From: Christiangramia sediminis | GTDB lineage: Bacteria; Bacteroidota; Bacteroidia; Flavobacteriales; Flavobacteriaceae | Direction of reading: 5' to 3' | DNA length: 64,000 nucleotides | Assembly (NCBI RefSeq): GCF_020552705.1 | Contig: NZ_JAJBZG010000001.1 | Span: forward strand, 558,001-622,000 | Part shown: positions 13,621 through 20,743 of the stretch, piece after piece | How the letters are laid out: each line of letters begins with the position of its first letter | Position numbering within the stretch: position 1 is the stretch's first letter | Program-made: the position numbers and the translations under genes | The notes under the pieces: generated by a model | Databases searched by the model: none | The model's input: the letters and a program-made list of their open reading frames with translations, nothing else | Told to the model about the DNA's origin: nothing

Positions 13621-14337
13621 TTAGCTTTTACCAAGCTTATTGAGGATATCAATTTGGTGTCCTTCTTCAAGATTGAAACCAGGTTTTCCTTTTCTTGGGA
13701 ATAAGAAAGTAAATGGAGTATCAAATGCCGCCCAGCTTTCAGCAAGTCCGTAATCATTATTCTCATTTTTCTTTTCCGGTCTTATAAAGGTGTTTAATTC
13801 TGAATCGTAATCAGATCCCACGGCATCTTCTCCGGGGAATAACATTCCTTCATTAATTTCAGTATAAACAACAACGGAAGCTCCTTCGCTGCCCGGTAGA
13901 TCAAAAATATTAATATCAAAACTATCTAATACCTTATCTTTTGCGGTAATGTCTTTGGTTTTAAAATTATCTTTGAAATTTTTTCGTGGATGTGCATAAA
14001 TTGGCGCCCCATTGGCATCTTCTGAAATTGTTTTTAAATCTGCATAGGCAGAATTTAAAATTCCGTCACAGGTTATCAAAATACCTTTAATATTATATCC
14101 TTCTTCTACCAGCTTTTTTACGGCTGCTTTTGAAGATTTTTCCACTACATCTATCAGAATCATATCTCTACGATTTAAATGCCTAATCGCGTAACCCTGA
14201 TTAAAAACTCCATTCTCTTTTTCACCCTTTATAATAAAAGTGTCCGGGATTAATTTTAAGAATTTCCCTGTTTCACCTTGTTCAATAAATTCTGCCGACT
14301 GGCTGTGAAGCACCTCCATTTTATCTACTGTCTTCAT
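13621..14337 (-). CDS. Metallo-beta-lactamase-fold protein lacking metal ligands
   Basis: 238 residues from MKTVDKMEV; an upstream ATG would add 12 residues of doubtful value. The segment order matches an MBL hydrolase: FIIKGEKENGVFNQGYAIRH, then LIDVVEKSSKAAV, then the position of the HxHxDH metal motif, which here reads GILITCDGILNSAYADL. Next come GAPIYAHPRKN, LPGSEGASVVVY in place of the usual GHTxG, and GMLFPGEDAVG in place of the FxGD loop. All the usual His ligands except possibly one are gone, so hydrolase activity is unlikely. A structural, sensory or binding role is possible. The fold call is mine from pattern, not from a search. Confidence 0.65.
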   Translation of the reverse strand: MKTVDKMEVLHSQSAEFIEQGETGKFLKLIPDTFIIKGEKENGVFNQGYAIRHLNRRDMILIDVVEKSSKAAVKKLVEEGYNIKGILITCDGILNSAYADLKTISEDANGAPIYAHPRKNFKDNFKTKDITAKDKVLDSFDINIFDLPGSEGASVVVYTEINEGMLFPGEDAVGSDYDSELNTFIRPEKKNENNDYGLAESWAAFDTPFTFLFPRKGKPGFNLEEGHQIDILNKLGKS

Positions 14338-14419
14338 ATATAAATGATTTTTAATTGATGATTGAAGATACAAAACAAGGACGGAGACATCAACCCAGTT
14401 TTTAAATGTTTAACTGCTT

Positions 14420-14980
14420 TTAGCACATAATTAACGGAATGCTCAAAGCTGTAAAATTGCCATGATGACTAAGAGAAAACGGAATGCTTTTATTATCATT
14501 TTCAAGAAATAATGAAGGTATCCCATTGAGGTCTTTGGATATGCTTGTATATGAATTATTTAAACCTAATTCTAATATTATATCCTGAATTAGATCTCTT
14601 CTGGAATATGATTTATTATCGTAGACCTTTTGAATATTCTTTCCTGAATCTACCCAGGTATGAATATATTCCGGGTTGATCACTGTTTTTAGAATATAAG
14701 TTTCTCTCTCAATTTCAACAGTTCCTGAAATGTCGCCTGAATGCAACGAACAATTATAAGAGATGGGGTTTAGCTTTCGGGCTAAATTGAATTTTCTTTG
14801 ATGGGCCTTATATGCTGCTTCTTTCATAGACCAAAATTGCCAAAGCATAAGCTCAGGATTTTTAGAATTCCAGATCGTAAGAATTTCATCCTGGTTAAAG
14901 ATCTTTCTTAAAAATCGATGATTTTCGGCTCTTTTATTGGCCAATGAAACTTTCAGGTCTATAATATCATTTCCGATCAA
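14420..14980 (-). CDS. 4'-phosphopantetheinyl transferase
   Basis: 186 residues. The signatures are GNDIIDL at residues 3-9 (the Mg-binding Asp) and WSMKEAAYKA near residue 50 (Glu and Lys of the WxxKEA motif). The enzyme moves the phosphopantetheine arm of CoA onto the serine of an acyl carrier protein; the obvious target is the ACP encoded just upstream. It is the last gene of the eight-gene polyketide operon. The start is TTG (14980-14978), overlapping the ACP stop as TTGA, because the family motif begins three residues later and no ATG precedes it. Confidence 0.9.
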   Translation of the reverse strand: MIGNDIIDLKVSLANKRAENHRFLRKIFNQDEILTIWNSKNPELMLWQFWSMKEAAYKAHQRKFNLARKLNPISYNCSLHSGDISGTVEIERETYILKTVINPEYIHTWVDSGKNIQKVYDNKSYSRRDLIQDIILELGLNNSYTSISKDLNGIPSLFLENDNKSIPFSLSHHGNFTALSIPLIMC

Positions 14981-15228
14981 CTGGCAAGTTTTTTTTGAAT
15001 AATGCTTTTCGCATCGCCTACGGTTAACATACCTTCCATAGAATCATTATCTATTTCAATATCAAATTCATCTTCCACATCCAGCACCACATCTACCAGA
15101 TTTGCTGAGTTTATTTGAAGATCATTCAGAAAATCTGTTTCCTCATGGAAATTCGCCATTCCCTCTATTCTTTGTACATAAGGTTCAACGATCTTTTTTA
15201 GTCTGGTAATAATTTCTTTTTCACTCAT
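14977..15228 (-). CDS. Acyl carrier protein of the polyketide operon
   Basis: 83 residues, acidic and helical. The attachment serine is Ser41 in LQINSANLVDVVL, where primary-metabolism ACPs have DSLxxVEL; the downstream helix DVEDEFDIEID is typical. It presumably carries the growing acyl chain for the KAS, dehydratase and reductase encoded beside it. It lies 10 bases after the KAS stop and overlaps the transferase that would activate it. A second, housekeeping ACP is expected elsewhere in the genome. Confidence 0.9.
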   Translation of the reverse strand: MSEKEIITRLKKIVEPYVQRIEGMANFHEETDFLNDLQINSANLVDVVLDVEDEFDIEIDNDSMEGMLTVGDAKSIIQKKLAS

Positions 15229-15238
15229 AATTTAAGAT

Positions 15239-16513
15239 TTAGGCAATATATTTTTTAAAAAGAACCACAGCATTTACATCTCCAAACCCAAAACTGGCTT
15301 TAGCCAAAATATTAATTTTTTTGTTGATTTTTTCATTCGGAATTTTATTTGGATCTATAAGTTTTGAGATCTCTGGGTGAACATCATCACAATTTATATT
15401 TCCAAACATGAAACCTTTATAGATCTGCAGCACGGAAGCAACACTTTCTATGGAACCCGAGGCACTTAAGCAGTGACCGGTCATTCCTTTTAATGAGTTG
15501 ATATCTGGGAAATCAGAGCCCTCTCTTTTCAATGCCTTGGTCCAGTTTAAGATTTCTACTGAATCTCGGGTAGTGGCTGTTAAATGCCCGTTTATCGTAT
15601 CTATTTCATCAGCCTTAATATTGGAATTTTTCAACGCGGTTTTAATACAACGTTGTACAGCCTCATTATTAGCTGCCGTCATACTACCTTCCCCTCTCTG
15701 ACCGCCGCTATTTACCTCTCCTCCTAAAACTTCAGCATATATTCTAGCTCCTCGTTTGTTTGCAGATTCCAGGTCTTCTAAAACAAGGGCTCCTGCCCCA
15801 CTCCCGGGAACAAATCCAGCGGCAGATTCACTCATCGGCCTGGAAGCCTTTTCAGGATCATTATTAAATTTATTGGGAAGGATTCGCATTGCATCAAAAC
15901 CACCCCAAATATAAGGCCCGTGATCTCCACAACTTCCAACGAGCATGCGTTTGGCCTTACCAGCCTTTATTCTATCATAACCCATAAGCAGGGCTTCGGT
16001 TCCTGTGGTACAGGCAGAAGAATTGGTAGTCACCTGATTTCCGCAACCCAAAATACCCCCCAGATAAGCACTAATTCCACTGGCCATGGTCTGTACCACA
16101 CTGGTACTCCCAAGTCTTCTGGTTTTACCCGCATCAATTAAATGGATAGCTTCCCTGAATTTATCTACGCCCAGAATTCCCGTTCCAAAAATGATACCTG
16201 AGTCCCAATCAGGCGAACCGGTGTCTGTAATTGATAAACCGGCATCCTTCCAGGCATCGGTTCCTGAAATAACTCCGTAAACAATTCCGCTGCTATTTAA
16301 TCCTCGAAGTTGAAGTGGTGTGAAATATTGCTGCAGTAATTCTTCAGTAATTTCCGGTTTCCCTCCAATCTGGCAGCTAAATTTTAATTCTTCCAGTTCA
16401 GGAAAAAAGCGAATGCCGCTTTGTGTTTGTTTTAAAGCATTTTGAAAATTATCGAGTCCTACCCCATTTGGTGCAGCCACTCCCATCCCGGTTATAACAA
16501 CGCGTTTGCTCAT
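15239..16513 (-). CDS. 3-oxoacyl-ACP synthase, KAS II-like
   Basis: 424 residues from MSKRVVITGMG; a longer frame to 16561 would run into the dehydratase gene and adds a basic non-conserved leader. The Cys-His-His triad of a decarboxylating condensing enzyme is visible: Cys168 in NSSACTTGTEAL, His310 in NGHLTATTRDS (primary KAS II has NAHGTSTPL) and His347 in KGMTGHCLSASG. It elongates acyl-ACP with malonyl-ACP. Its divergence from the usual second motif and its place in the operon suggest a specialised chain builder rather than the housekeeping FabF. The start ATG overlaps the dehydratase TGA. Confidence 0.9.
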   Translation of the reverse strand: MSKRVVITGMGVAAPNGVGLDNFQNALKQTQSGIRFFPELEELKFSCQIGGKPEITEELLQQYFTPLQLRGLNSSGIVYGVISGTDAWKDAGLSITDTGSPDWDSGIIFGTGILGVDKFREAIHLIDAGKTRRLGSTSVVQTMASGISAYLGGILGCGNQVTTNSSACTTGTEALLMGYDRIKAGKAKRMLVGSCGDHGPYIWGGFDAMRILPNKFNNDPEKASRPMSESAAGFVPGSGAGALVLEDLESANKRGARIYAEVLGGEVNSGGQRGEGSMTAANNEAVQRCIKTALKNSNIKADEIDTINGHLTATTRDSVEILNWTKALKREGSDFPDINSLKGMTGHCLSASGSIESVASVLQIYKGFMFGNINCDDVHPEISKLIDPNKIPNEKINKKINILAKASFGFGDVNAVVLFKKYIA

Positions 16514-16962
16514 TTTTTTGCTTCTTCTTGAAACATCATTCCGGCGATCACCCCCTGGCAAACCAGATTATCTTCAGTATCTTTCATCTTAACCCTACAT
16601 TTAAGTTTATTAAATCTGAAATATTGTTTTTCTGAACTTACGATGACTTTCTCTCCGGGGTAAACAGGTTTTAAATATTCCACTTCAGAAGAAGTTAAAG
16701 AGACCTTCTGCTTTTCCCCGTTATTACCATTGTTGTTGAAAAGATAGATACCTAAACAAACTACCCCAATTTGAGCCATACATTCGGTTAAAATAACCCC
16801 GGGAGTAACCGGATTATTTTTAAAATGCCCTTTGTAAAAATCAAGATCTGGCGAAAATGTAAATTCTCCAACAATGGAATTTTCATTGACTTCTAAAATC
16901 TTATCTACAAATAGAAACGGAGACGAGTAAGGTAGTTGTGAAAGAATAAAATTATTGTCCAA
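16510..16962 (-). CDS. FabZ-like 3-hydroxyacyl-ACP dehydratase
   Basis: 150-residue hotdog-fold protein. LPYSSPFLFVDKILEV (residues 10-25) and GHFKNNPVTPGVILTE (residues 45-60) are the FabZ signatures; His46 and Glu60 are the catalytic pair. It would remove water from 3-hydroxyacyl-ACP to give trans-2-enoyl-ACP. The start is TTG at 16962; no in-frame ATG occurs upstream before the reductase gene ends. It lies 12 bases downstream of the SDR gene and overlaps the KAS gene by ATGA. Confidence 0.85.
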   Translation of the reverse strand: MDNNFILSQLPYSSPFLFVDKILEVNENSIVGEFTFSPDLDFYKGHFKNNPVTPGVILTECMAQIGVVCLGIYLFNNNGNNGEKQKVSLTSSEVEYLKPVYPGEKVIVSSEKQYFRFNKLKCRVKMKDTEDNLVCQGVIAGMMFQEEAKK

Positions 16963-16974
16963 ATGCTTCAGAAT

Positions 16975-17769
16975 TTACATTAAATGTTCCCCGCCATTCA
17001 CAGGAATTATAGTTCCGGTGATCCAACTGGCTTCGTCCTTGCTTAAAAGGTAAACCACATTGGCTACATCATCTGGCACTGTTAATCTTCGAAACGGATT
17101 ATGTTTCAAGGCATGAACTCTCAAAGTTTCATTCCCTGGGATCATTTGAAAAGAACGAGTAACGGTTATTCCTGCCTGAATACAATTTGCCCTGATTCCG
17201 TGGCCTGCAAATTCCAGGGCCATACTTCTGGTAAGCGCCTCTAATGTAACTTTCGCAGCAGAAACCGCTGCATAATTCTTCCAGGCTTTCTTATTTCCAT
17301 CGCTGGTAAAAGAGATCACCCGGGCATCTTTAGAAAATAATTTATTGCGAAAAATCGCCTGTGTCCAGTCATACAAACTCAAAGCCATAGCATCTATGGT
17401 TAACTGAAAATCTAAATTTTCGAGCAGGTTATCATCCCCGGTCATTGGCTTTAGATTTCCTTTGGCGATACTATGAAGAAGTGTGCGTATTTTACCATTT
17501 TCACCCAGTACCTCCCTGATCTTCTCTACTAGTACTTCCCGACTTTCCTTTTTCACGGCATCGGCGTTAAAACTTTCAAATTTTACTCCAGAAGCTCTAA
17601 TTTCATCAAAAGCTTCTTCTATATCTGGAATCTCACTTCGCCTGTCACGATGAATAATAATGATATTCATCCCGTGCTTAGCCAGTTTTTTAGCACTGGC
17701 GTACCCAAGGCCGCTACTTCCACCAAGAATAAGCGCCCAGTAATTCTGATCTTGAAAATCCTTTACCAT
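16975..17769 (-). CDS. SDR, probable enoyl-ACP reductase (FabL/FabI-like)
   Basis: 264 residues. The NAD(P) loop is GGSSGLG (residues 16-22). The active site reads NYAAVSAAK with Tyr166 and Lys173 six residues apart. That Y-x6-K spacing marks enoyl-ACP reductases; 3-ketoacyl reductases have Y-x3-K. The C-terminal RANCIQAGITVTRSF and SWITGTIIPVNGGEHLM are also SDR-like. It would saturate the enoyl chain made by the neighbouring dehydratase. The operon has no ketoreductase of its own, so that step probably relies on the housekeeping FabG. The gene overlaps the PKS gene by 7 bases. Confidence 0.82.
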   Translation of the reverse strand: MVKDFQDQNYWALILGGSSGLGYASAKKLAKHGMNIIIIHRDRRSEIPDIEEAFDEIRASGVKFESFNADAVKKESREVLVEKIREVLGENGKIRTLLHSIAKGNLKPMTGDDNLLENLDFQLTIDAMALSLYDWTQAIFRNKLFSKDARVISFTSDGNKKAWKNYAAVSAAKVTLEALTRSMALEFAGHGIRANCIQAGITVTRSFQMIPGNETLRVHALKHNPFRRLTVPDDVANVVYLLSKDEASWITGTIIPVNGGEHLM

Positions 17770-18815
17770 TCTATTAAAATTCTTTGTGCCGAAAACCCGG
17801 GTCCAAAGCTTAGCATGACTCCCTGTTCCCCTTTCTGAATTTCTTTATTCAGAAATCTTTCCAAAACATAGAGCACTGTGGCACTACTCATATTACCGTA
17901 AAGACGTAAAACTTCCCGGGTATCGTCTATATTCTTTCCTAAGTTACCAAAAAGATCAGAAACAGTTTGCACAATTTTTCTACCGCCTGGATGAAATATC
18001 AAATGTTCTACTTTCTCAATAGATGATCCATGCTTTTCCAGAAATGGATGAATGATATCTGGAAAATGACTGGAAATCGTTTCGGGTACGGCTGGATCAA
18101 GGATCATTTGCAAGCCGTGATTAGTAAGATCGAATCCCATCATTTGGGTAGCATCATAAAAATGATACATTTCTTCTCCTATTATTGCAGGGCCTTCAGT
18201 ATTTTCTTCAGAAGAAAGCAATACGCAGGCGGCCCCATCACCAAAGATAGCCGCGCTAACCATATTCGCCATACTAAAGTCATTCAGCTGAAAAGTGGCC
18301 GTAGGGCTTTCAACAGCTATTATTGCTGCTCGCTTCCCCGGATTGGATCTTAGAAAATTATACGCGTAAATCATTCCTGAAATTCCTGCCGCACAACCCA
18401 TTTCGGTAACTGGAAGCCTGGTAATATCCTGTCTTAAATTCAGATCATTTATAAGGTAAGCGTCCAAAGAAGGGATCATTATCCCAGTGCAACTTACCGT
18501 GATTATATAATCCAGGGAATCGGCATTCCAATTAGAATTTCTCAATGCTTTTTCAAGAACATTCTTACCGAGTTTTTTTACCTCCCTTACATAAATATTG
18601 TTTTTATCTTCAAAGGAAGTCGCTGTAAAAACATCTTCTGGAGACATAATTGAATAGCGTTTATCTACTCCAGCACCTTCAAAAATTTTCAGGATCTTTC
18701 TTCTGAATCGTTCATCCTGATCTTCCAGCCAGTTTTCAACCAGGGGTAACACATCTTCTGTTTTTCTGAAATATTCAGGTAATTCCTTTTCAGCCCGCAC
18801 AATTTTTACACTCAT
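17763..18815 (-). CDS. Type III polyketide synthase (chalcone/alkylresorcinol synthase family)
   Basis: 350 residues from MSVKIV; the frame opens at a TTG three codons earlier, which is less likely. The Cys-His-Asn triad of type III PKSs is complete: Cys141 in TEMGCAAGISGM, His275 in HLIFHPGGRK and Asn308 in YGNMSSATVLYVLE. CTGIMIPSLD and the C-terminal LSFGPGFSAQ are also family marks. The enzyme extends an acyl starter with malonyl-CoA and cyclises the product. With fatty-acid-type genes in the same operon, a long acyl starter and an alkylresorcinol or alkylpyrone product are the best inference. KAS III is ruled out by the GNMSSAT asparagine motif together with HPGG. Confidence 0.93.
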   Translation of the reverse strand: MSVKIVRAEKELPEYFRKTEDVLPLVENWLEDQDERFRRKILKIFEGAGVDKRYSIMSPEDVFTATSFEDKNNIYVREVKKLGKNVLEKALRNSNWNADSLDYIITVSCTGIMIPSLDAYLINDLNLRQDITRLPVTEMGCAAGISGMIYAYNFLRSNPGKRAAIIAVESPTATFQLNDFSMANMVSAAIFGDGAACVLLSSEENTEGPAIIGEEMYHFYDATQMMGFDLTNHGLQMILDPAVPETISSHFPDIIHPFLEKHGSSIEKVEHLIFHPGGRKIVQTVSDLFGNLGKNIDDTREVLRLYGNMSSATVLYVLERFLNKEIQKGEQGVMLSFGPGFSAQRILIEW

Positions 18816-18824
18816 AAATTCCAA

Positions 18825-19541
18825 TTATTCTTTTCTAATGATCCACTGATACCTGAAAGCCCATTTCCATGATATTTCATGATGTTTAGCAGTAACTTTT
18901 TCAGTGAAATCCTTAATTTCTTCTTTTTTGAATCCTCTCAGGATGGAAGTTAAACCATCTTTTCTGGCGATCTCATTATTTACAAAAACAGCACAAAAAG
19001 CCTGGAACAAAATATACGCAACACGATTTCTATGCAGATCATTTATGACCACACCCAATTTTGCCTGAACATATAGCTGATTTAACAGCTCTACAATTTG
19101 ATTATCTTTAAAATGATGGAGGGTAAGTGTACAGAGAATTATATCAAACTCCATATTTTTAAAGTCTTCACTGAAAATATTAAGAGTTTTAAAATGTAAA
19201 TTCCCATAATCCCTGGATAATTCTTCGGCGATCTCAATAGCGTGATGATTGGCATCAATTCCTGTCAATTCAAATTGATAGTCTTTTCTTTGTCCCAATT
19301 CAGCAATTTTCCTGAGTATTGCGGCATTTCCACAGCCTATATCTGCAATCCTGATTATTCTTGACTTCGATCTTTCTGCTAATAACTTTTCGATTCCATT
19401 AATGGTGATCTGGTTACCGCCCAGCCAGGCATTAATATTTTCCAGATCTTTTAAAGTTCTTCGTAATTCTTCCCCCTGAAGATCAAAACCATCCATGATC
19501 TCTGCCCTATCAGTACGCTGGGATGTGTCTATTCTAAACAT
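18825..19541 (-). CDS. SAM-dependent methyltransferase of the polyketide operon
   Basis: 238 residues, class I Rossmann methyltransferase. Motif I is RIADIGCGNAAIL (residues 64-76), the acidic residue ending strand 2 is in FELTGIDANH, and FDIILCTLTLHHF is motif IV with its post-motif His. It overlaps the flavoprotein gene by 8 bases and is 9 bases from the PKS start. In Streptomyces griseus the srs operon pairs a type III PKS with a methyltransferase and a flavoprotein, so methylation of a polyketide phenol is likely. O- versus C-methylation cannot be decided. Confidence 0.87.
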   Translation of the reverse strand: MFRIDTSQRTDRAEIMDGFDLQGEELRRTLKDLENINAWLGGNQITINGIEKLLAERSKSRIIRIADIGCGNAAILRKIAELGQRKDYQFELTGIDANHHAIEIAEELSRDYGNLHFKTLNIFSEDFKNMEFDIILCTLTLHHFKDNQIVELLNQLYVQAKLGVVINDLHRNRVAYILFQAFCAVFVNNEIARKDGLTSILRGFKKEEIKDFTEKVTAKHHEISWKWAFRYQWIIRKE

Positions 19542-20667
19542 GAATTCGTTTTCCGTGGGTTCGTCTAATTATGTGCGGTAATATTCCCGGAGCTTTACTA
19601 AAAAAGCTCTGAGAAATATCAGACAGTGATTTATTTAAAAGTATTTTCTGAAGCAATCTTCCGGCCTTTATCCTTGATCTAAAATGATGATTCCATTCCT
19701 CAATATACCTGTTTTCAATATCACTTCGGGTACAATTCTTTTTATCATAAAATTGAAGAATATTTTCTGAAGCAATTTTTGCGCTATGAATTGCCATGGC
19801 CATTCCATTTCCACATAATGGATGGATAAGACCCGCTGAATCACCGATCATAAGAATATGCTCCTCAATAAGTGATTTTTTATCGAAACTTACCTGGGCA
19901 ATGCTCAATTCTTTATCAAATACCATTTCAGTATTATTAAAGAATTCATCTAAATGCGGATTTTTTCTTAAAACCTGTTCTTTATAATCCTGTGTATTCT
20001 TATAATTTTTAAAGCTATTGTATGTAGCGAGATAGCAGACATTAATAGTATTCAATTCTGTTTTTGAAAGTCCGCAATACCCCCCGTTGAAATTATGCAG
20101 GGATACCAGGTCATCTGGATAAAAATCAGATGTAGTTTTGTAATGTGCTTTTACCGCCAGCCATCCCGATTGATCCTGAATAAAATTTCTCTTCAATTTC
20201 TTATCGAGATTTGATCTTTTACCGTAGGCACCTAATACAAATTCGGAAGAGATAATTTCTCCTTCAGAAGTAGTGATTAAAAATTGCCCATTCTTATAAA
20301 CGACCTCTGTAACTAAAGAATTGATGATGATACAACCCGCGCTTTTCGCCTTCTGAAATAAAAAATGATCCAGTGAATACCGGCTTATACCAATGCCTCC
20401 CATTTCCAGCTGACAACTGATGATATTTCCTGAAATTGAAGAATACTCCATCTTATCGATCCCGGGTGGTTTTATACTCTCTAAATCGATTTCCAAAGAA
20501 TGTAAATAAGGAATAATCTCCCGGGATAAATACTCCCCGCAAACTTTATGATGAGGATAGCTCTCTTTTTCCACAAGAAGAACTTTAATGCCTTTTCCGC
20601 ATAAATGAATGGCCGCAGTTAAACCGGCCAGCCCGCCACCAATAATAATTACCTGGGTATTTTGCAC
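19534..20667 (-). CDS. FAD-dependent oxidoreductase of the polyketide operon
   Basis: 377 residues of the geranylgeranyl-reductase/PHBH-like superfamily. The FAD motif is IIIGGGLAGLTAA (residues 7-19), followed by KVCGEYLS (residues 41-48) and GDSAGLIHPLCGNGMA (from residue 275), which contacts the FAD phosphate. Such enzymes hydroxylate aromatic rings or reduce or oxidise lipids. By analogy with SrsC, hydroxylation of an alkylresorcinol towards a quinone is the best guess. This is the first gene of the operon. It starts at GTG (20667-20665): the frame is closed by a stop 10 bases upstream and contains no earlier ATG. Confidence 0.87.
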   Translation of the reverse strand: MQNTQVIIIGGGLAGLTAAIHLCGKGIKVLLVEKESYPHHKVCGEYLSREIIPYLHSLEIDLESIKPPGIDKMEYSSISGNIISCQLEMGGIGISRYSLDHFLFQKAKSAGCIIINSLVTEVVYKNGQFLITTSEGEIISSEFVLGAYGKRSNLDKKLKRNFIQDQSGWLAVKAHYKTTSDFYPDDLVSLHNFNGGYCGLSKTELNTINVCYLATYNSFKNYKNTQDYKEQVLRKNPHLDEFFNNTEMVFDKELSIAQVSFDKKSLIEEHILMIGDSAGLIHPLCGNGMAMAIHSAKIASENILQFYDKKNCTRSDIENRYIEEWNHHFRSRIKAGRLLQKILLNKSLSDISQSFFSKAPGILPHIIRRTHGKRIHV

Positions 20668-20690: not shown

Positions 20691-20718
20691 AAAAAAATCC
20701 CGGAATAACCCGGGATTC
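20691..20718 (-). terminator. Intrinsic terminator after the OmpA gene
   Basis: Read on the minus strand, AATCCCGG and CCGGGATT form a GC-rich stem of about 8 bp around a 6-base loop and are followed by seven T residues. It lies between the OmpA stop and the GTG start of the polyketide operon, so that operon should have its own promoter in the remaining 24 bases or be expressed by readthrough. Confidence 0.88.
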
Positions 20719-20743
20719 TTATAAAATCTATTTAAAAAATAAA

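Follow-up and report, generated by a model that had tools for sequence, protein, structure and literature searches.

A conserved operon of Christiangramia sediminis that places a type III polyketide synthase beside a candidate acyl-ACP builder

Several type III polyketide synthases (PKSs) are reported to take their starters from an acyl carrier protein (ACP). According to one review, germicidin synthase (Gcs) and SCO7671 use hexanoyl-ACP, and ArsB and ArsC take chains from the fatty acid synthase (FAS) ArsA, whose ACP domain delivers them to the PKS cysteine (PMC6274091); CylI is described as using ACP-bound substrates, and HidC putatively does so (PMC8086630). We analyzed an eight-gene operon at positions 14420-20667, minus strand, of a 64,000-nucleotide stretch of Christiangramia sediminis DNA (NCBI RefSeq assembly GCF_020552705.1, contig NZ_JAJBZG010000001.1, positions 558,001 to 622,000; the whole stretch is called the window), in which a type III PKS gene stands among genes of the kind that build acyl-ACPs. 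The original prediction for this locus had named the transfer of an acyl group from ACP to PKS as novel chemistry; because acyl-ACP use by type III PKSs is, in these sources, already in print (Gcs, SCO7671, ArsA to ArsB and ArsC, CylI), that claim falls. Distinctive features are a builder made of discrete type II proteins within a conserved cassette, the optional reductase, and a Phe in place of a Trp in the PKS; the hand-over chemistry itself has precedents.

The closest described systems each share part of this arrangement. As reviewed, the Azotobacter ars locus likewise ties a fatty acid synthase to type III PKSs, but its FAS is a type I enzyme, whereas the cassette encodes discrete type II proteins along with a methyltransferase (MT) and a flavin adenine dinucleotide (FAD)-dependent enzyme, and its PKS has Phe where ArsB has Trp281. 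Germicidin synthase and CylI are type III PKSs with ACP-bound starters, as is proposed for the cassette; the accounts drawn on here describe no co-encoded discrete builder of ketosynthase (KS), dehydratase (DH), and enoyl reductase (ER) for either, and in the case of CylI the supply comes from type I PKSs and a free ACP. The hierridin hidABC-like PKS-MT-FAD trios of Bacteroidota have, in their published outline, the same adjacency and the same kind of tailoring pair as the cassette. However, the trios are without KS, DH, and ACP, and the cassette PKS is not of the trio lineage in a comparison with trio PKSs of six Bacteroidota genomes. PKS loci with an ICMT-family methyltransferase, which we take to be of the bpsAB/srsAB type, fall on the same side of a 100/99 branch of the PKS tree as the cassette family; the four inspected have that methyltransferase but no builder module, unlike the cassette. 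Finally, a module of short-chain dehydrogenase/reductase (SDR), DH, KS, ACP, and phosphopantetheinyl transferase (PPTase) like that of the cassette occurs in dar clusters of two genomes, divergently transcribed from DarB. There the ring is reported to be formed by DarA and DarB, expression of C. pinensis darA and darB having yielded a dialkylresorcinol (PMC3992019), and not by a type III PKS as in the cassette.

Read 5' to 3', the operon encodes the FAD enzyme, the methyltransferase, the type III PKS, a FabL-like SDR, a FabZ-like dehydratase, a KAS II-like ketosynthase, the ACP, and the PPTase, with junctions of -8, +9, -7, +12, -4, +10, and -4 bases (Table 1). Pfam matches and coordinates agree with the leftward run and the families originally named, and the operon, predicted from gene layout, is confirmed as real and conserved. 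Its G+C content is 0.379, against 0.376 for the window. Both Chal_sti_synt domains of the PKS scored above their Pfam cut-offs of 27 (N, 70.9 bits; C, 70.6 bits), and the ACP, at 20.7 against a PP-binding cut-off of 20.8, fell 0.1 bit short. The methyltransferase reached 145 bits against the NCBIfam model PRK06202 (cut-off, 243). FabL (3oic; E 2.4e-22) was the single PDB match of the SDR at E 1e-20 or better, while the NCBIfam FabL equivalog model gave it 141 bits, below the cut-off of 328. Because none of the eight proteins reached an NCBIfam curated cut-off among the matches listed, we regard them as broad-family members and not as named equivalogs. Pfam and NCBIfam searches matched no ketoreductase or malonyl transacylase family among the eight genes, as had been expected for this run, and no acyltransferase or ligase either.

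A scan of bacterial genomes matched 289 stretches, 266 of which encode a PKS relative, and the best 80 loci were retained for all 80-locus counts (alignment rows: PKS, 80, comprising 79 loci and the window; SDR, 44; DH, 81; KS, 79; ACP, 77). The comparison of gene order across relatives that the original prediction had called for bore the cassette out: contig ends allowing, the order FAD-MT-type III PKS-(ER)-DH-KS-ACP-(PPTase), in which the parenthesized genes may be missing, is collinear in 80/80 loci, and PKS, DH, and KS keep their order and share a strand in every one. The ACP gene is present in 77 of the 80, the exceptions (L078, L103, and L110) being contigs that end in or just past the KS gene. 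The methyltransferase is found in 79 and the FAD enzyme in 78, with the gaps (both genes in L087, FAD in L039) at a contig start. Spacing is larger in a few loci (1035 bases between KS and ACP in L044, 912 between DH and KS in L087, and 589 between SDR and DH in L099). Active-site residues are invariant for the Cys-His-Asn triad of the PKS (80/80 rows), the KS (79/79), the His and Glu of the DH (81/81), and the Tyr and Lys of the SDR (44/44), so that both the complete triad, numbered from the ATG at 18815, and the Y-x6-K motif stand as originally read. The ACP serine is present in 77/77 rows and is preceded by Asn in 76. On the upstream side, the OmpA-like/lipoprotein/E1 region is shared with Maribacter, Arenibacter, Aequorivita, and others, and, among the flanking genes tested, the downstream hypothetical gene is kept only in Christiangramia, Gillisia, Salegentibacter, and Salinimicrobium. 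No tested flanking gene is kept in the Flavobacterium, Pedobacter, or Kaistella loci, so the cassette forms an independent unit.

To follow the link between the KS and this particular PKS, we used 395 evenly sampled Bacteroidota genomes; a type III PKS reaches E 1e-25 or better in 174 of them. The PKS subfamily of the cassette, defined at E 5e-190 or better, occurs in 33 genomes (next best match, 8e-72). A cassette-type KS, searched at E 1e-60 or better with at most four candidate places scored per genome, was found in 38/395 genomes, including all 33 carriers of the PKS subfamily, and by the listed coordinates it lies on the PKS contig at a distance of 0.45 to 1.54 kb in 33/33 carriers, an association that spans 19 named genera. 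In the other five genomes the KS is 47-54% identical and sits away from any type III PKS; each of these also carries another type III PKS, either on another contig or, in G576, ~117 kb off. We also drew 40 PKS neighborhoods from the 174 genomes, consisting of 2 subfamily members and 38 other type III PKSs. The module was present beside both subfamily members, and no KS, DH, or ACP of the cassette kind was found in the fetched stretches around the 38 others. Twelve of the 38 have MT and FAD genes near the PKS, with a weak FAD match (29-32 bits) in four of the twelve; four of the remaining 26 were inspected (L173, L175, L178, and L184), and each has the ICMT-family methyltransferase next to the PKS.

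Elsewhere in the same genome, genes named by eye from the Pfam families matched, length, and neighbors include an acpP-fabF pair at C1:554.8-556.3 kb, a 465-aa FabZ-domain fusion (LpxC-FabZ type), FabG-like genes, and a second ACPS-family protein. Identity between the cassette KS and the FabF-like KS next to the AcpP-like ACP is 32%, and the two ACPs are 43% identical over 49 residues, with a serine context of N-S-A-N-L in the cassette ACP versus D-S-L in the AcpP-like one. The possibility that the cassette KS and ACP are the cell's only fatty acid synthesis set, which was originally named among the findings that would overturn a dedicated starter, is ruled out by the separate acpP-fabF pair, FabZ fusion, and FabG-like genes. 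Because the KS neighbors the PKS in all 33 carriers, no such module lies at the 38 other PKSs, and the housekeeping FAS is separate, the cassette appears to have a dedicated acyl-ACP supply. In a competing explanation, the PKS draws CoA starters from the general pool, and the KS-DH-ACP genes are merely clustered with it and feed the ordinary lipid pool. Type III PKSs were indeed long thought to take only CoA starters, as one paper recounts (PMC8086630), and PKS-MT-FAD trios exist without the module, but the unbroken KS-PKS association in the 395-genome sample and the housekeeping-type FAS genes elsewhere make this explanation very doubtful.

From these gene associations, we think it reasonably probable that the locus is a dedicated phenolic-lipid (or alkylpyrone or quinone) operon in which an acyl-ACP builder hands its chain over to the PKS; the product is probably a methylated phenolic lipid. 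In such a pathway the operon PPTase could arm the operon ACP, on which the KS-DH-(ER)-ACP set would build a medium or long acyl chain, with malonyl loading and ketoreduction presumably borrowed from housekeeping enzymes. Cys141 of the type III PKS would then accept the acyl group from the ACP, and the PKS would add two or three malonyl units and cyclize the product, and the ring would be methylated by the methyltransferase and hydroxylated or oxidized by the FAD enzyme. Where the reductase gene is absent, the chain may be reduced by a general enoyl reductase or left unsaturated. The 33/33 association supports, as an inference, the original proposal of a dedicated ACP starter followed by methylation and oxidation; the reductase, by contrast, proved optional, and the sharing of the module with dar clusters had been missed.

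Several observations weigh against a dedicated operon of this kind. The reductase is present in 43/80 loci and missing from 37/80, and among the 77 loci extending far enough to show the PPTase, it was located in 60 and not in the other 17, so that each is nonessential to the cassette. The best sequence model for the FAD enzyme is the geranylgeranyl reductase (GG-reductase) superfamily, at 118 bits (cut-off, 158.8), and its top matches in both sequence and structure include halogenases. In the PKS, Phe231 replaces the Trp discussed below, and resorcinol, resorcylic acid, and pyrone are therefore all possible ring types. With a 9-row alignment as input, the PKS was modelled poorly (pLDDT, 53.4), and this structure was set aside.

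The reductase-less loci comprise most of those from Flavobacterium, all Pedobacter loci in the set, and others. Mapped onto a PKS tree comprising the window and 79 loci, presence or absence of the reductase requires 6 changes and that of the PPTase 3 (on 77 rows), both counted without a shuffled control. The gap between PKS and DH is 5-167 bases in 36 of the 37 reductase-less loci and 866 in L084, where an unrelated 233-aa gene (L084:11131-11832) lies between the two, exactly at the place of the reductase in other genomes. Relocation of the reductase to another part of these genomes was ruled out by a search of the window's genome and 17 relatives: in seven relatives a close homologue (56-62% identity) was found, and its coordinates place it immediately after the PKS every time; of the other ten, nine have no match at E 1e-20 and one has a 32% match.

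The AlphaFold model of the FAD enzyme (pLDDT, 87.8) has 3-hydroxybenzoate 6-hydroxylase as its top Foldseek match (TM, 0.79), and a ring hydroxylase is the assignment we prefer as the fairly likely one. A halogenase was rejected despite the matches to that family, because the protein has no WxWxI, the halogenase motif. For the PKS, a Trp that is conserved in FtpA, SrsA, PKS10, and PKS11 is reported to be essential for resorcinol formation (PMC5916927) and is numbered 281 in ArsB (PMC6274091). Mapped by hand in the alignment, this Trp is residue 230 of Pks11 and corresponds to Phe231 of the query (Phe228 from the ATG). All 80 rows of the cassette family have Phe in this column, whereas 37 of the 38 other Bacteroidota type III PKSs have Trp, the exception being L191, with Phe; the cassette PKS thus lacks the residue that marks alkylresorcinol synthases of the ArsB/SrsA type. 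Basic residues special to the cassette PKS family were also seen in the alignment.

Pyrone-forming ketosynthases join two ACP-bound chains head to head, and the cassette PKS could in principle do the same, like DarB, to give a dialkylated ring. The presence of the same SDR-DH-KS-ACP module beside DarB and the departure from other Bacteroidota type III PKSs at the cyclization-determining column are in keeping with such a reaction. Yet no DarA-like gene is among the eight, and the triad and fold family of the PKS are ordinary; we give the idea little credence. Another explanation starts from the NCBIfam model that fits the PKS best, DpgA (dihydroxyphenylacetyl-CoA synthase). Malonyl-CoA is the sole substrate of DpgA, and the cassette PKS might likewise make a small ring of the phloroglucinol or dihydroxyphenylacetate type from malonyl-CoA alone, the KS-DH-ACP chain being joined later or serving another lipid. 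Phloroglucinol is reportedly the product proposed for a type III PKS of Zobellia. That Zobellia enzyme is 69% identical to one from Aequorivita (PMC6139392). However, the DpgA match of 174 bits is far below the equivalog cut-off of 425, the eight genes include no acyltransferase or ligase, and in the Flavobacterium, Pedobacter, and Kaistella loci no tested flanking gene is kept, so that we consider this explanation unlikely.

The preferred pathway, with an acyl-ACP builder serving the PKS, combines parts that also occur separately. PKS-MT-FAD trios exist without the module, so the tailoring pair and the builder are separable units joined in the cassette. The cassette FAD enzyme and methyltransferase have mean identities of 41% and 33% to one trio group (six genomes), versus 51% and 46% within 22 cassette rows, and the PKS has a mean identity of 28% to trio members versus 74% within the cassette family. 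On the PKS tree the cassette family (support, 100/100) is separate from the trio PKSs, and a single clade of cassette PKSs and the trio PKSs of the six genomes was rejected (approximately unbiased test, p-AU 6.6e-5), although long branches occur and the choice of group followed sight of the scores. Very long branches distort the careful FAD and MT trees, in which the cassette family is not one clade; in quicker trees it forms one clade, next to six trio members in the FAD tree (0.85 support) and, in the MT tree, placed next to trio members without useful support. Because of these long branches, the argument rests on identities, hidden Markov model scores, and the PKS tree. Taken in this way, the cassette looks like a mosaic of a trio-like FAD/MT pair and an SDR-DH-KS-ACP module.

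The module in turn has other partners. In L217 and L218, SDR-DH-KS-ACP-PPTase genes diverge from DarB genes (635 and 615 bits; cut-off, 550), and L217, the only one tested for it, also has the acyltransferase DarH (454 bits; cut-off, 300). These two genomes are without the cassette PKS subfamily, and their KSs are 53-54% identical to that of the cassette. A KS tree separates three settings (T3, 91/97; DAR, 95/99; GT, 97/95), with a long-branch warning among the own-genome KSs. Since the five noncassette KSs sit in the same kind of module beside DarB or a glycosyltransferase, this module seems to be a portable builder of acyl-ACPs that has been coupled to various ring-forming or lipid enzymes. 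A bolder version, in which the portable SDR-DH-KS-ACP module serves DarB or a type III PKS, the Phe pocket joins two ACP-bound chains or closes an undescribed ring, and loss of the reductase switches between saturated and polyene side chains, strikes us as improbable. In three stretches (L219:5325-9689, L220:6597-11746, and L221:5606-9856), DH, KS, and ACP genes occur with no type III PKS in the stretch and with an SDR in L220 only; they adjoin a protein with a Pfam GNAT match and a family 2 glycosyltransferase (both tested in L219 and L220). This set is possibly a different lipid pathway that uses the same acyl builder.

The cassette PKS is a common trait in the family and nearly constant in the genus, being found in 63/199 sampled family genomes (matches of at least 59% identity only) and in 23/24 genomes of the window's genus. 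One study counts 9% of the antiSMASH clusters of Flavobacteriaceae as type III PKS clusters (PMC7440613), and three Aquimarina clusters of this type are reported to have matched nothing in MIBiG (PMC9860996). A reported "T3pks-arylpolyene" cluster of Aequorivita (PMC6139392) is probably this cassette, because the Aequorivita loci L079, L094, and L096 carry it. Among open-licence PubMed Central papers, for which titles and the starts of abstracts were listed (in part the best 25 of 42 and of 73 papers), none described the whole cassette or assigned it a product, which is weak evidence given that subscription papers lay outside the search. If the proposed hand-over is right, the cassette would give chemical meaning to many "T3PKS" calls in Flavobacteriaceae and would provide a small discrete system (separate ACP, KS, DH, ER, and PKS) for dissecting transfer from carrier to type III PKS, and the natural variants with and without the enoyl reductase offer a test of side-chain control.

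Table 1. Coordinates of the operon genes and of an upstream hairpin (positions in the window)
Feature	Position	Strand	Details
FAD-dependent oxidoreductase, tailoring	19534..20667	-	377 aa, GTG start; Pfam FAD_binding_3
Class I S-adenosylmethionine (SAM) methyltransferase, tailoring	18825..19541	-	238 aa; Pfam Methyltransf_31/25
Type III polyketide synthase	17763..18815	-	350 aa from ATG at 18815; Pfam Chal_sti_synt N/C; Cys141-His275-Asn308
FabL-like SDR (enoyl-ACP reductase III-like), optional cassette part	16975..17769	-	Y-x6-K (Y166, K173)
FabZ-like hotdog dehydratase	16510..16962	-	150 aa, TTG start; Pfam FabA 62.9 bits; His46, Glu60
KAS II-like ketosynthase	15239..16513	-	424 aa; Pfam ketoacyl-synt N/C; Cys-His-His intact
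Acyl carrier protein	14977..15228	-	83 aa; PP-binding; Ser41 in I-N-S-A-N-L motif, not the usual D-S-L
Phosphopantetheinyl transferase	14420..14980	-	186 aa, TTG start; Pfam ACPS 37.8 bits, cut-off 25
Terminator-like hairpin with T tail	20693..20720	-	upstream of the operon, between the OmpA-like gene and the operon; pattern match only

The hairpin scan of the region gave 18 such sites, versus 6.3 expected in shuffles. Directly downstream of the operon, window positions 13621-14373 encode a protein without a Pfam or NCBIfam match that is 56-94% identical in loci of the nearer genera; a metallo-beta-lactamase-like fold was suspected by eye only. The eight-gene operon was rejected as an aryl-polyene/flexirubin cluster, since no ammonia-lyase or aryl starter gene is among the eight. 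Outside the window (C2:558001-622000 of genome G000), a separate cluster at G000:C2:~634000-646000 (L212) contains, as recognized by eye, several KS-like proteins and a FabG-like SDR together with an ACP and an ammonia-lyase-like gene; it is probably an aryl-polyene/flexirubin-type pigment cluster. The one genus member among the 24 without a PKS match, G585, is a single-contig assembly rated 100% complete. In G150 (C1:841126-842162), the subfamily PKS is in two pieces, representing either a decaying copy or an assembly error.

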